The translations under genes were made by a program, and so were the position numbers. The notes beneath the pieces are model-generated. The model did not search any database and was not told the DNA's origin. It worked only from the letters and a program-made list of their open reading frames with translations. Below, piece after piece: positions 5,959 through 27,409 of a stretch of DNA of 64,000 nucleotides. Source of the stretch: Anaerocolumna aminovalerica. Lineage in GTDB: Bacteria > Bacillota > Clostridia > Lachnospirales > Lachnospiraceae. The first letter of the stretch is position 1. The number at the start of each line of letters is the position of its first letter. The stretch is from NCBI RefSeq assembly GCF_900115365.1, contig NZ_FOWD01000011.1, forward strand, positions 1 to 64,000. The letters run 5' to 3'.

Positions 5959-6176
5959 TTCTGTAATAGTATTATAATACCTTATTATAACGCATTTATA
6001 GTCTCCATAAAACAGATTTTTTTATCTAATTTAGATTTTTGTTGACATTTTTTATTTTTTTGAATCGAATAATGTCACAATTTTTATTTTACCGAATAAT
6101 ATATTACTATGAAAAGCAAATGAAATAGAAAAACCCCAAAGAAGAAAAATAAGAAATTAAATAAGACAAAAAGGGT

Positions 6177-6245
6177 AAGGTTGAAAGAAAATAATCTAAT
6201 AGAAAGGATGCCACAAATGCTTCTTTCAACCTGATTTTTTGTGGC
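6177..6245 (+). ncRNA. Candidate pseudoknot leader RNA (copy 1)
   Basis: GGTTGAAAGAA (6179-6189) pairs perfectly with TTCTTTCAACC (6221-6231). Inside the loop, GCCACAAA (6210-6217) pairs with TTTGTGGC (6238-6245), which lies beyond the first stem. The two helices interleave, as in an H-type pseudoknot. A further hairpin ATCACA (6249-6254) / TGTGAT (6267-6272) ends just before the ATG at 6278. A homologous element with a compensatory change in the second helix is at 27212-27278 on the minus strand. I do not recognise it as a known riboswitch class. Confidence 0.55.
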
Positions 6246-6277
6246 TACATCACATAAAAAAGAAAGTGTGATATGCA

Positions 6278-6769
6278 ATGGGTATAAAGATGATTGACTA
6301 TTTAAAATTAATATGTGACAGCTTAGGAATTCAATTGTTTTATAACAATAACAATGCATTGGTTTTATCAACAGATGTAAAAGAAGACGTACCCACTTTA
6401 AGAGCTTACAAAGCGTTTGAATTCTGCCCTGAATCTGTTGCAAAAGCAATTATCAATTATTATGTGGGAGAAGATGATAAAAAATCACATGAAGAAAAAA
6501 TAATGGAATATTTAAGAGGAGATTTAGAACCTGTCATTTTTGAAGCTTATGACCAAAACCCTTTCTTTAGAGATGCAATTATTAATAATATAAACACAGA
6601 GAAAAATTATGAGGAAGATACATCCTTAGTCGAATATGAAATTATAACTATAGTGTCAAAAGATTTCTTTGGAAAAGAAACACAATATAGCAGCAAAGAA
6701 CCGCTCACTTTATCTGATAGTAGTAGTCTATTAGAATTGGAAGTAAATATAAAGCCTCTTGATACATAA
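6278..6769 (+). CDS. Hypothetical protein behind the pseudoknot leader
   Basis: I do not recognise this 163-residue protein. It is acidic and soluble-looking, with no signal peptide or membrane segment. The first third reads like a small alpha/beta domain (IDYLKLICDSLGIQLFYNN), the middle is rich in charged residues (GEDDKKSHEEKIMEYLRGD), and the tail is Ser/Thr-rich. The start is uncertain: the ATG at 6278 has only a weak site (AAAGAAAGTG), and an in-frame ATG at 6290 is possible. It is followed 16 bp later by the gene at 6786, which has a strong ribosome binding site, so the two are probably cotranscribed. Confidence 0.75.
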   Translation: MGIKMIDYLKLICDSLGIQLFYNNNNALVLSTDVKEDVPTLRAYKAFEFCPESVAKAIINYYVGEDDKKSHEEKIMEYLRGDLEPVIFEAYDQNPFFRDAIINNINTEKNYEEDTSLVEYEIITIVSKDFFGKETQYSSKEPLTLSDSSSLLELEVNIKPLDT

Positions 6770-6785: not shown

Positions 6786-7235
6786 ATGGGCTGGAAATTA
6801 AGCAGAATCGACTTAACCGGATGTCATCAAATTAAACCTAATGAAGAAATTGATCTTTGTATCGAATTAGAAAAAGAATTCAGAGCTGCAATTCACGGTG
6901 TTGTTAAATTCCCTAACGGAAAACCAGTTGAAGGTGCTGTAGTTAAACTTTTCAAGAAAAATAAAGAATATAAATCTTATGAATCAAAATGCGAAAAGAA
7001 ATATGAAGAAAAATGTGAAGAAAAATACGAAAAAGAATATGAAAAATTTGAAAAAGGTTATGACAAAGGATACGACAAATGTTTTGATAAAGACTGTGAT
7101 TTAATCCCAGTAACTTTTACATTTACTGATGAATGTGGTCAATTCTTATTTGGAGTTGAATCCGAAAAAGATTACGTTATAAAAGTTTTCTTTTACAAAC
7201 CTGAAAAATACCCTAATTGCCATGAAAAGAAATAA
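6786..7235 (+). CDS. Transthyretin-like / carboxypeptidase-regulatory-like small protein with a charged repeat
   Basis: The 149-residue product starts at the ATG 6786, chosen because AAAGGAGGTG lies at 6771-6780; the frame continues upstream but without a ribosome site. Residues about 35-60 (AIHGVVKFPNGKPVEGAVVK) and 110-140 (FTFTDECGQFLFGVESEKDY) look like the two halves of a Cna-B/CarboxypepD_reg beta-sandwich. They are split by a low-complexity insert of repeated K-Y-E-E-K and K-G-Y-D-K units with several cysteines (about 61-103). There is no signal peptide. It resembles small proteins near spore coat genes in clostridia, but that is memory only. A terminator follows at 7314-7345. Confidence 0.75.
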   Translation: MGWKLSRIDLTGCHQIKPNEEIDLCIELEKEFRAAIHGVVKFPNGKPVEGAVVKLFKKNKEYKSYESKCEKKYEEKCEEKYEKEYEKFEKGYDKGYDKCFDKDCDLIPVTFTFTDECGQFLFGVESEKDYVIKVFFYKPEKYPNCHEKK

Positions 7236-8643: not shown

Positions 8644-8923
8644 GACGCTTTGCCTTTTAGGTGTTGAAACTTTCGGGAGTAGGGGGGATGTGTGTTTTAT
8701 GTTCCGCTTGGAGAATTCTATGGTTCTAATACTATAGTAATTGCTTAAAGAATATTAAGAAATTGCGAACTCGTCGGGGTTACACCCCTCCTCAAACATC
8801 ACAATTTCTAAATATAGGCGCAATTCCTATAGTATAAGGACCATAACGAATTCTTCCAAAGTCACATAAATCACACATCCCCCACTCTCGAAAGTCTATT
8901 TACTTATTGAGGGGCAAAGCTGG
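8641..8923. repeat. Long imperfect palindrome (about 285 bp), copy A
   Basis: The left arm begins AGGACGCTTTGCC and the right arm ends GGGGCAAAGCT. The arms pair over nearly the whole length: ACTTTCGGGAGTAGGGGGGA with the reverse complement of the stretch around 8878-8896, ATACTATAGTAATTGC with GCAATTCCTATAGTAT, and AGAAATTGCGA with CACAATTTCT. The centre is near 8785. It starts on the argG stop codon. The ends match copies at 30745-30863, 53926-54197 and 54330-54600, while the interior differs. Confidence 0.75.
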
Positions 8924-24694: not shown

Positions 24695-26554
24695 CTAGTC
24701 ATACTGTAATAGGCCATCCGCAGCCACGTCTTCTGTAACCGCAACTTCATCTTCTTTGTAATATTGTGCCTGTACCTGAAACATCTCTGCATACTTCTGA
24801 TTTTTATCCAGCAATTCCTCATGAGTGCCATACTCAATTAATTCTCCTTCTTCAAACATGGCAATCACATCACAAAAAGAAGTACTTGCTAATCTATGGG
24901 AAATAAATATTGAAGTTTTACCCTCCACCATTTCATTAAACTTTTCATAAATACTGCGTTCTGCAATGGCATCCAAGGCTGCGGTGGGTTCGTCAAGTAT
25001 AACTATGCCTGCATCTTTATACAATGCTCTGGCCAGTATAATTCTTTGTGTTTCCCCGCCGGAAAACTCCACCCCTTCATCATCCAGTATTTTTTGCATA
25101 CCTGTATGAATTCCATTTCTCATTTTCAATACCTTTTCCTTCATATCTGCCTTTTCGAGACACCAAAGTACTTTACCTTCTTGCAAACTACCTTCTGATA
25201 CCGCAATATTTTCAGCTACGGAAAAAGCCAGAGTTTTAATTTCTTGAAATACCGCTGAGAACAGGGTGTAATAATCCCTTTTTGAGAATTCCTGAATATT
25301 AATTCCATTCAACAGGATTTCCCCGGATTCCGGTTCATACATTCGGCATAGCAATTTTATAAAGGTAGTTTTTCCTGCTCCGTTGTGACCTACAATAGCT
25401 AATTTTTGACCCGGTTTTATATGAAAAGATATGTCTTTATAAACGTATTTTTCACTTCCCGGATACCTGAAAGTTACATTCTTAAATTCTATTTCATATG
25501 GTCCATCCGGCAATGGTCTTGGATGATCCGGTTCTTTTTCTTCCTTCTTCTCCAGAAATACTCTAAAGTCACTTACGTACAGACTTTGTGCACGAATATG
25601 TGCCATATCATCCATAATTACCTTCATTGCATTTGCAAAACTTGCAACTGCCGCAAAATACATGGTAAAACTGCCAATACTCAAACCATTATTTATTACC
25701 TGGTATATTAGGTAAGCATAGACAATACCTTCTCTTATAATTAAGAAAATTACTTCACTTACTCCTACTCTGAAATATTTGTATTTAATTTTCTTCTCTA
25801 TATCAAAACGCTGTTTCTTAAATTTCTGAAATAAGCTTCCAATCCAATCTGTCAGACTGTAGATTCTCATATCTTTACCATATGCAAAATTATACATTAA
25901 ATCATAGGAATATTTTGAGTGGCGGTCTATATCTGATAATTCATCTGCCTTATTATATTCATATTTTTTTACGGAAAAGGTAAAATAATAAACGATGCCT
26001 ATGTTGGCTATTAAATATAGCAAAATAAATATATTCAGCCTACCGATAATCAGTATATAGCCTATGAGTACAATTATATTTCCTCCTAAAACAAATAACT
26101 TATGAAGGATGCCTTCCAGTCCGTTTATATTACTTTGTAAAGCACGAAATGCGGTTTCTACCGAATTCAAGAAGGAAGGATCTTCTGTATTTTTATAATC
26201 TGTAGTCATACATTTTATACTCAACATATGAATAAATTGAAAGCGGATATCTACCATCTTAGGCAGGTAGGAATTTTTAATAAATGTTACAATATATCCA
26301 ACAACAGCTGATGATAAAAAGAAACTTATCAATAATAGAATCAGTCTGTTTTTATCCTGACTACCCGTCAATTCATCTAATATATATTTAGGGAACAGGA
26401 TACCTATAAAGGGAAGTATTCCACCTGAAATAGTAAACACTATGAATATCCCAAATAAGGATTTATCGTATTTCCAACTATGAGAAATAATATATTTTAT
26501 ATTATTCCAGGTTGAATAGGATCTCTTTTCAGTTTCATCAATATGCCTGCCCAT
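24695..26554 (-). CDS. ABC exporter half-transporter, subunit A
   Basis: 619 residues with six membrane helices (about 30-320) and an ATPase: Walker A GHNGAGKTT, signature EFSGGETQRIILARALY (FSGGE instead of LSGGQ), Walker B IVILDEPTAALDA and H-loop FISHRL. The altered signature in one subunit is common in heterodimeric exporters. The tail after the ATPase is acidic (EDEVAVTEDVAADGLLQYD). Its start overlaps the end of the bactofilin-like gene by 17 nt, so the exporter is very probably translated from the same mRNA as yhbD and the two polymer-forming proteins. Confidence 0.92.
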   Translation of the reverse strand: MGRHIDETEKRSYSTWNNIKYIISHSWKYDKSLFGIFIVFTISGGILPFIGILFPKYILDELTGSQDKNRLILLLISFFLSSAVVGYIVTFIKNSYLPKMVDIRFQFIHMLSIKCMTTDYKNTEDPSFLNSVETAFRALQSNINGLEGILHKLFVLGGNIIVLIGYILIIGRLNIFILLYLIANIGIVYYFTFSVKKYEYNKADELSDIDRHSKYSYDLMYNFAYGKDMRIYSLTDWIGSLFQKFKKQRFDIEKKIKYKYFRVGVSEVIFLIIREGIVYAYLIYQVINNGLSIGSFTMYFAAVASFANAMKVIMDDMAHIRAQSLYVSDFRVFLEKKEEKEPDHPRPLPDGPYEIEFKNVTFRYPGSEKYVYKDISFHIKPGQKLAIVGHNGAGKTTFIKLLCRMYEPESGEILLNGINIQEFSKRDYYTLFSAVFQEIKTLAFSVAENIAVSEGSLQEGKVLWCLEKADMKEKVLKMRNGIHTGMQKILDDEGVEFSGGETQRIILARALYKDAGIVILDEPTAALDAIAERSIYEKFNEMVEGKTSIFISHRLASTSFCDVIAMFEEGELIEYGTHEELLDKNQKYAEMFQVQAQYYKEDEVAVTEDVAADGLLQYD

Positions 26555-27173
26555 TCACCTTACCTACCTTTGCACTGGGGTCAATGGATAAGTTACCATC
26601 GCATTCGACTTCTTCAATAACACAGTTTGCTCCGATGGTTACATTATTCCCTCTTACCGATCCTGCTTTTACATTACTAAGTTCAATGGTAGTAGCCTCC
26701 ATCAGATCCACAGAGGAACGTCCTTTTCCTTTTCTATTATGAAAGCCAAAGCCGAATATATTAAAATGCACATCTCTATCTAGCAAATGCTTATAATTAA
26801 CGATTTTAATGTATTCACCATAGATCTCCGGTGCGGATATATAACCTTCCACTTCAATCTTATCTGCCGATATTTCACCCTCTGAGTTTAGTACACCTTC
26901 ACAATATATATAGTCAGCTTCAATTTTTTCTTTTTTCTGATTCACTACACCCTCTATTTTTAAGTCTTTTACTCTAACCGATTTATTAAGAGTAATAACC
27001 CCTTCTATATTCATTTCATCAGATTCAACGGAACCGTTACACTTTAAGACACCTTCCACCATCAATTTGGAAGCTTTAATATCTCCGGTAAGATCACCTA
27101 CCCCTTCTACGCTAATAATGTCATATTCTCCACCGCTGATTTTACCAAGTCCTTCTATAGTTATATTTCTCAT
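26538..27173 (-). CDS. Polymer-forming (bactofilin-like) protein, YhbF type
   Basis: 211 residues from the ATG at 27173. It consists of short beta-helix repeats alternating E-G-V/L-x turns (IEGLGKISGGEYDIISVEG, then MVEGVLKCNGSVES, IEGVITLNKSVR, IEGVVNQ, CEGVLNSEGEIS), followed by a conserved tail ending VRGNNVTIGANCVIEEVEC. The frame runs 48 codons further upstream, but MRNITIEGLGKISGGEY is the usual N-terminus and the upstream part is the pseudoknot leader (27212-27278). The neighbours match yhbD-yhbE-yhbF of Bacillus, where YhbE/YhbF are bactofilins involved in motility. Membrane helices are absent. Confidence 0.82.
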   Translation of the reverse strand: MRNITIEGLGKISGGEYDIISVEGVGDLTGDIKASKLMVEGVLKCNGSVESDEMNIEGVITLNKSVRVKDLKIEGVVNQKKEKIEADYIYCEGVLNSEGEISADKIEVEGYISAPEIYGEYIKIVNYKHLLDRDVHFNIFGFGFHNRKGKGRSSVDLMEATTIELSNVKAGSVRGNNVTIGANCVIEEVECDGNLSIDPSAKVGKVNGQAY

Positions 27174-27211
27174 ATTTAACACCCATTCCACATCATTTAA
27201 AGATGTAATAC

Positions 27212-27278
27212 CACCACTAATATCCGGTTGAAAGAAGAGTTTTGTGGTGTCCTTTCTTAATTTATTTTCTTCAACCTT
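27212..27278 (-). ncRNA. Candidate pseudoknot leader RNA (copy 2)
   Basis: On the minus strand GGTTGAAGAA (27267-27276) pairs with TTCTTTCAACC (27226-27236) with one bulge. CACCAC in the loop (27244-27249) pairs with GTGGTG beyond the stem (27212-27217). Compared with copy 1 (6177-6245), the homology is high over the helices and loops and stops at the edges of the structure. The GCCAC/GTGGC pairing of copy 1 becomes ACCAC/GTGGT here, a compensatory change. The start codon is 38 nt downstream, against 32 nt in copy 1. Confidence 0.55.
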
Positions 27279-27409
27279 TGAAAGAATGATTATTGATATC
27301 TTTCTTCCTTCTTTCATTGATGCTTTTTGTGATACTAACTTATCAATCCCAAATGTCCTCTCTAATCGAATTTACATATTTGCAGCATTTAATACAACCC
27401 CACATATCT

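Follow-up and report, generated by a model that had tools for sequence, protein, structure and literature searches.

A dispersed pseudoknotted leader element at start codons of Lachnospiraceae genomes, with a proposed translation initiation signal of its own

We describe a mobile structured leader element of Lachnospiraceae which, fairly probably, is lodged between the Shine-Dalgarno sequence (SD) and the AUG of its host genes and brings its own initiation signal. The first copy was recognized in a stretch of 64,000 nucleotides of Anaerocolumna aminovalerica (assembly GCF_900115365.1, contig NZ_FOWD01000011.1, positions 1 to 64,000; hereafter the window). The element is almost certainly a conserved RNA of ~110 bp, built from two hairpins (P1 and P3), an SD-like loop, and a pseudoknot helix (P2); its tail, GGU(G)UAAAA, terminates on the start codon.

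A gene that receives an insert between its SD and its AUG is expected to fall silent, but the element precedes genes read as nusB, rbfA, and coaD. If initiation is restored by an SD held in place by the pseudoknot, the element would be a portable ribosome-entry device that occurs naturally in bacteria and of which one genome alone offers more than 100 natural variants for study. It would also show how spreading through ribosome-binding sites can cost a repeat and its host little. Ready-made test pairs exist in the form of filled and empty alleles in sister species.

Results

The element in the window

The original prediction described an H-type pseudoknot of no recognized class in the leader of a gene pair. 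The arms of its 11-bp helix (P1) and those of the interleaved helix (P2) are indeed perfect complements, the hairpin that we call P3 is present where it had been placed, and a second copy exists in the window on the minus strand (Table 1). Searches of Rfam 15 at the gathering score yielded no family for the element, in keeping with the prediction; they returned only a tmRNA gene elsewhere in the window (RF00023, 51771-52117, minus strand) and one sub-threshold chance match on the opposite strand.

Table 1. Features of the window copy, its host genes, and the second copy (positions counted from the first letter of the window)
Feature	Positions	Strand	Remarks
Purine tract AAAAAGGGT directly 5' of the element, read as remnant of the host gene's own SD	6168-6176	+	Alignment with the empty site in genome G013
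Whole element copy (match to model R1; final bases are the start codon)	6176-6292	+	
P1, 5' arm	6179-6189	+	GGTTGAAAGAA
TAGAAAGGA within the P1 loop, complementary to the 16S 3' tail TCCTTTCTA; proposed displaced SD	6200-6208	+	Duplex energies; role inferred
P2 (pseudoknot), 5' arm	6210-6217	+	GCCACAAA
P1, 3' arm	6221-6231	+	TTCTTTCAACC
P2 (pseudoknot), 3' arm	6238-6245	+	TTTGTGGC
P3 hairpin, ATCACAT...GTGTGAT	6249-6272	+	Variable, at times absent in relatives
Tail GGGT, weak SD-like site 5' of the start codon	6280-6283	+	
Host gene 1, no Pfam family above cut-off	6290-6769	+	In-frame ATG also at 6278
Gene 2, weak CarboxypepD_reg similarity below cut-off	6786-7235	+	
Second element copy, ends on the ATG of a 211-aa ORF	27171-27279	-	P2 is CACCAC/GTGGTG

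Folded without the pseudoknot, the window copy has z = -3.04, and 2 of 200 shuffles fold equally well or better. A chance origin of the structure is excluded by the 66 homologous matches (E<=0.01) in the same genome to a covariance model, R1, which was built from 16 copies of this genome with a structure that includes P1 and P3 and excludes P2. The window copy scores 114.9 bits with R1 but is among the 16 sequences used to build it; the second copy, which is independent of model building, matches with E 2.6e-11. The next best R1 match inside the window has E 0.21 (25613-25707, minus strand) and retains TTTGCGGCAGT and ATGCAATG parts; it is perhaps a decayed copy. Separately, an imperfect long inverted repeat was noticed by eye at ~8660-8910, 3' of an argG-like gene (CTTTCGGGAGTAGGGGGATGTGTG ... 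CACACATCCCCCACTCTCGAAAG), perhaps another miniature element.

The original prediction took as the start the ATG 32 nt downstream of the pseudoknot (6278). This ATG is in frame, but the start common to the rest of the family and to the ortholog in the sister genome G013 is the one at 6290. It was further suggested that P3 could sequester the weak ribosome site; as drawn, however, the hairpin leaves the tail GGGT uncovered, and we abandoned this reading. Two other candidates were also rejected: a conserved mini-ORF in the leader (ATG ATT CTT TCA ACC TGA) is broken in copies L009, L010, L012, and L013, and the loop stretch GGAUG, considered for CsrA-type binding, varies.

Family size and distribution

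An initial DNA search of the A. aminovalerica genome gave 43 matches at E<=10, corresponding to ~40 copies that have diverged from one another. The covariance model extended the search for further homologues to 79 matches at E<=1 when 150 candidates were scored. In a sample of relatives, with 91 candidates scored per genome, R1 matched 15 of 15 genomes of the genus and none of 26 others. A wider scan of the family found matches in at least 21 of 397 genomes, representing 19 genera counting that of A. aminovalerica (18 others), and in a class-wide sample, which drew many genomes from the same family, none of 390 other genomes matched and A. aminovalerica alone did; both scans scored 9 candidates per genome under stricter filters, which makes their counts lower bounds that weak copies can escape. 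The complete genome of Anaerocolumna sp. AGMB13025 (G010) contains at least 147 copies, as 147 of the 150 candidates scored there matched. A pattern scan of named genomes identified 62 stretches in Anaerocolumna species, Clostridium sp. KNHs205, related MAGs, and one Robinsoniella peoriensis; Anaerocolumna and Robinsoniella both belong to Lachnospiraceae. We also considered carriage by phages or plasmids and set it aside: one exact pattern had no match among viral contigs, and one AGMB13025 copy used as query had none among plasmids and phages.

Conservation of the structure

Across 99 aligned copies (98 distinct), the aligned cells are paired at 95.5% in P1, 78.5% in P2, and 95.4% in P3, and 198 cells carry double changes, compared to 57.3 in shuffled alignments and at most 57 when the partners are slid. 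All three helices, including the two that define the H-type geometry, exhibit compensatory changes among relatives. The alignment of the 16 own-genome copies (A1), in which GGT of the tail is invariant, contains no double change in P2, so the test of this helix rests on other lineages. There the covariation demanded of the second helix is present: P2 has been remade as CTGCCATAT/ATATGGCAG (G083), AATTGCCCA/TGGGCAGTT (G160), TGCAAACACA/TGTGTTTGTG (G305), and TACCACAA/TTGTGGTA (G048), and the second window copy has a further version (Table 1). A copy-by-copy control is more modest, with P2 better than shuffled downstream sequence (p<=0.05) in 51 of the 91 copies parsed as long. At one orthologous site, reading of the nusB copies of G005 and G007 reveals a compensated change in P1.

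Helices were parsed in 139 of 148 copies, and in 138 of these P2 measures 5 bp or more; the top-scoring helix is wrong in some (for example L016, L029, and L021), and the automatic list of copies lacking P3 contains artefacts. Reading of the sequences led us to accept L053, L094, L125, L126, L160, and L167, in which P2 and the ATG are 15-20 nt apart, as lacking P3, and likewise L178 (before nrnA). A short class in six genera (G071, G136, G180, G202, G293, and G330) has neither the loop nor the 5' arm of P2. In G329 (L127, L128) and G195 (L144), the best partner of the P2 5' arm is not in the usual place but is the tail GCATGG, which could hide the SD of the tail. Like this alternative pairing, the shortness of loop 3 relative to the 11-bp P1 that it accompanies counts against the explanation proposed below. 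Some copies are built of repeated modules: in L014, L026, and L035 of A. aminovalerica, tandem repeats of ~20 nt of the type ATCTGTAAACAGAGTATYAC lengthen P3; in L066, L064, and L097, tandem P1 hairpin units of ~52 nt, each with an SD-like loop, lie 5' of the terminal element; and L104 has a run of even shorter hairpins without the loop.

Position at start codons and genes served

The ends of the best 60 of the 66 A. aminovalerica copies with E<=0.01 were compared with the starts of ORFs of at least 60 aa: the end coincides with the ATG in 49 copies and is no more than 15 nt away from it in 53, and 5 have no such ORF. In other genomes the corresponding numbers are 66, 68, and 7 of 77 copies, a set that includes runs of incomplete hits and in which 25 aa were accepted where the end of the locus cuts the ORF. 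The ATG is part of R1, and the informative point is that this ATG opens a gene. The genes, as read from their N-termini, include nusB, coaD, proB, truA, ackA, polA, tsaD, rbfA, pth, nifH, DHFR, lplA, and others; TlyA was found above its profile cut-off and trigger factor just below.

A conserved structured leader before start codons is what one expects of a riboswitch, and the original prediction pointed to a small riboswitch belonging to the gene pair. The genes behind the copies are, however, functionally unrelated and suggest no common pathway or ligand, the same RNA stands before dozens of them, orthologs differ in whether they carry it, and it is absent from the G013 ortholog of the window gene; the riboswitch reading is not supported. 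A broader version, in which a ligand or a global RNA-binding protein controls translation of a large regulon through the element, would account for a conserved pseudoknot immediately before many start codons and for the conserved purine-rich loop. We consider it improbable, not only because of the unrelated genes but because the same gene has or lacks the element in sister species, copies have spread to new genes, and the loop sequence changes in G329 (L128) and G195 while remaining SD-like.

Mobility and insertion between SD and AUG

For 61 of 135 copies, the nearest neighbour is another copy of the genome in question (shuffled mean 33.3; maximum of 1000 shuffles 50), and AGMB13025 contains copies that are 96-99% identical before unrelated genes. 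Identity of the A. aminovalerica copies is 0.54 both within and between genomes; the copies of this genome therefore look old. Presence of the element at orthologous genes is patchy: 1 of 11 orthologs with a readable start for ackA, 5 of 13 for nusB, 7 of 15 plus two weak matches for rbfA, and 1 of 3 for the window's own gene. Orthologs without the element have other leaders in its place, and these frequently contain a conventional SD (AAAGGAG in the case of ackA, for example). A different leader, with a hairpin GAATATC...GATATTC followed by CACGAAAGGGGTTAAA or CAGGAAAGAGGTTAAA, was noticed before the orthologs of ackA (L219) and rbfA (L183, L184, and L186) in G009, G014, G011, and G012; it perhaps represents a second dispersed leader family.

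The near-identical copies have sharp boundaries, with identity beginning at AAGG and stopping around GGGTGTAA, and the bases directly 5' of them read as SD (GGGAGGAATT, GAGGAGAT, AGGAGGGGT, and AAAGGTGA). We examined this in 40 of the 147 AGMB13025 hits, chosen from the better-scoring ones and mostly without tandem neighbours. The choice favours young copies, which we define as sharing at least 0.92 identity with some other member of the set. The flank is SD-like (<=-6 kcal/mol) in 20 of 24 young copies, compared to 25 of 120 windows located farther 5' (p 1.5e-9) and to 6 of 16 older copies (young versus old, p 0.008). In a wider set (175 copies, reduced to 159 by removal of 16 flagged as tandem and to 132 by removal of 27 with an upstream hairpin), flanks reach -8 kcal/mol in 10 of the 24 young copies, as opposed to 14 of 108 among the older ones (p 0.0025); the tandem flags in both tests are rough patterns, and some copies are mislabelled (for example L237). 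The upstream hairpin, likewise recognized by a rough pattern, is of the type GATGCCGCAAAGCGGCATC and recurs directly 5' of 27 of the 175 copies (for example L010, L018, L027, L040, and L071). SD enrichment is not a general feature of the flanks: it is confined to recent copies, and the 5' flanks of the A. aminovalerica copies are not enriched (3 of 60 at <=-8 kcal/mol).

The ortholog in G013 provides the empty site of the window copy. It shares the upstream flank up to AGGAAGGTTAA, after which TGAA and the ATG follow directly, and its AGGAAGG, located 8 nt before the ATG, aligns with the purine tract of the window copy, which has a flank energy of -5.1 kcal/mol. Removal of young copies in silico restores a normal arrangement of SD, spacer, and AUG. 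This would also be expected of an intron-like insert that excises itself from the mRNA and rejoins the host SD to the AUG; such an insert would require the host SD flank to be kept, whereas it is not retained in older copies, and Rfam contains no matching known ribozyme, which leaves this explanation very unlikely indeed. Taken together, the placement at start codons, presence and absence at orthologs, near-identical copies, SD-like flanks, and the empty site argue that the element very probably spreads within genomes and comes to lie between the SD and the AUG of a gene, where pieces of the host spacer remain at either end of it.

The element resembles small interspersed repeats and MITEs in being short, non-coding, dispersed in many copies, and present or absent between genomes. 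The concern that the copies are relics of a transposon was thus partly justified, in that the element is dispersed and mobile, but as a conserved structured RNA it is more than a decayed relic. No terminal inverted repeats were seen by inspection, as neither of the two ends (AAGGTTGAAAG and CAATGGGTGTAA) repeats the other in inverted form. In 23 AGMB13025 copies with readable ends, the flanking bases are AA/AA in 14, TA/TA in 4, and unlike in 5; these bases may represent a target-site duplication or, alternatively, the ends of the element. Tandem full copies fit insertion behind the GGGTGT tail of an earlier copy. No transposase was found for the element. IS200/IS605 elements have hairpins near both ends, a Y1 transposase, and a fixed short target; here, too, hairpins (P1 and P3) lie near both ends, while the insertion target is rich in GG-purine motifs and not fixed.

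These properties invite the explanation that the element is a selfish repeat: an enzyme would target GG-purine motifs (at low GC content, for the most part the SDs of a genome), the structure would serve single-stranded DNA transposition, and the weak tail would drive translation alone. The position of young copies behind SD-like motifs, tails of earlier copies among them, agrees with this, as do the hairpins near both ends. It does not explain why the loop keeps its complementarity to the 16S tail while other parts change. The ratio of G-U to A-C in P1 and P3 (68 to 27, compared to 129 to 81 expected from column make-up) also speaks against it, weakly, and was discarded as proof of selection at the RNA level. 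On balance we regard the selfish explanation as unlikely.

The SD-like loop and proposed translation start

At the usual SD position, the A. aminovalerica genes behind the element reach a median of -6.3 kcal/mol (12 of 60 at <=-8), compared to -10.8 kcal/mol (34 of 38 at <=-8) for window ORFs of at least 200 aa, a control set of putative genes selected by length alone. The loop motif, scored as a fixed stretch against a 16S 3' tail that was located by pattern in 3 of 6 genomes, has a median of -9.1 kcal/mol in own copies (39 of 60 at <=-8; shuffled -4.7) and -10.8 kcal/mol in other genomes (73 of 77 at <=-8; shuffled -5.1). Outside the genus, the loop of long-class copies reaches -8 kcal/mol in 21 of 23 and the usual SD position in 1 of 23. 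The loop motif lies -1 to +2 nt from P2 in 118 of 138 parsed copies, and the distance from P2 to the AUG is 14-18 nt in 94 of 138 copies with P3 removed, as opposed to 11 of 138 with P3 counted. A distant SD-like motif, a weak SD at the start, and an intervening structure are, at the level of sequence, the hallmarks of a split or standby SD.

An inserted copy moves the host SD to a distance of over 100 nt from the AUG, so that initiation would have to be supplied by the element. We propose that the 30S subunit pairs with UAGAAAGGA in the loop of P1; P2 would start beside this motif and, with P3 looped out, end ~16 nt 5' of the AUG, thereby holding the loop SD next to the tail, whose GGUG would continue the same pairing with the anti-SD (CACC|UCCUUUCUA). 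We infer, at roughly even odds, that the element provides translation initiation via such a pseudoknot-held split or standby SD. The most specific form of the proposal, a mobile IRES-like start cassette that inserts between SD and AUG, tiles the anti-SD with loop and tail GGUG, and persists before housekeeping genes whose own SD decays, is more tentative, and we hold it as a possibility somewhat short of even. The short class stands at start codons despite having no loop, with a strong canonical SD in only 5 of 17 copies. A trade-off between a weak loop and gain of a canonical SD appears over 165 copies (p 0.03) but was rejected, as it is not significant among 55 own copies (p 0.32).

An SD-like loop inside a structured leader is also reminiscent of the stab-SD leaders of Bacillus, where 30S binding is proposed to block 5' to 3' exonuclease. 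The pseudoknot and loop could stabilize the mRNA in the same manner; stability alone, however, requires neither placement tied to the start codon nor a spacing from P2 to the AUG that is kept as P3 varies, and we judge stabilization a rather remote explanation compared with a role in initiation.

Comparison with known systems

No description of the element was found in the open-licence literature, and the main texts of two genome surveys of structured RNAs (PMC11109978, PMC8632094) contain neither Anaerocolumna nor words beginning with Lachno.

Abundant lineage-specific leaders, TD-1 and TD-2, occur in Treponema denticola; the open-licence literature yielded no paper on them, and the text of the 2010 survey does not contain that spelling.

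Both halves of our explanation have parallels, namely small interspersed repeats and standby or split SD sites, and their combination was not found in the literature searched. According to the parts of PMC3049150 consulted, the BOX, RUP, and SPRITE repeats of Streptococcus pneumoniae are, like the element, ~100-bp non-coding multicopy repeats that can fold as RNA, are modular with tandem units, and are judged parasitic; unlike it, they are not tied to start codons and have no SD-like loop, and BOX has IS-linked terminal inverted repeats, of which we saw none here. Many sets of the TAACTGA repeats of Beggiatoaceae lie directly 5' of start codons, where they overlap the place at which a ribosome site would be expected in genes that lack a clear SD, but these are seven-base tandem units with no predicted structure and little SD character in the sections of PMC4679880 available to us.

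On the side of translation, the excerpted account of phage T4 genes 25 and 38 (PMC3014915) describes RNA structures that bring a distant SD to a working distance from the AUG, as we propose here, although with gaps of 22-27 nt, simple structures, and one gene each, and with no mention of a pseudoknot or of mobility in that excerpt. The tisB mRNA of E. coli has a standby site with an essential 5' pseudoknot (PMC7708055, in part). It differs from the element in being a single, non-mobile toxin gene with a sequestered ribosome site and dependence on S1, and the portion of that article consulted states neither an SD-like loop nor a comparable spacing from P2 to the AUG; it shares with the element a pseudoknotted leader and a 30S-binding region ~100 nt 5' of the start region.
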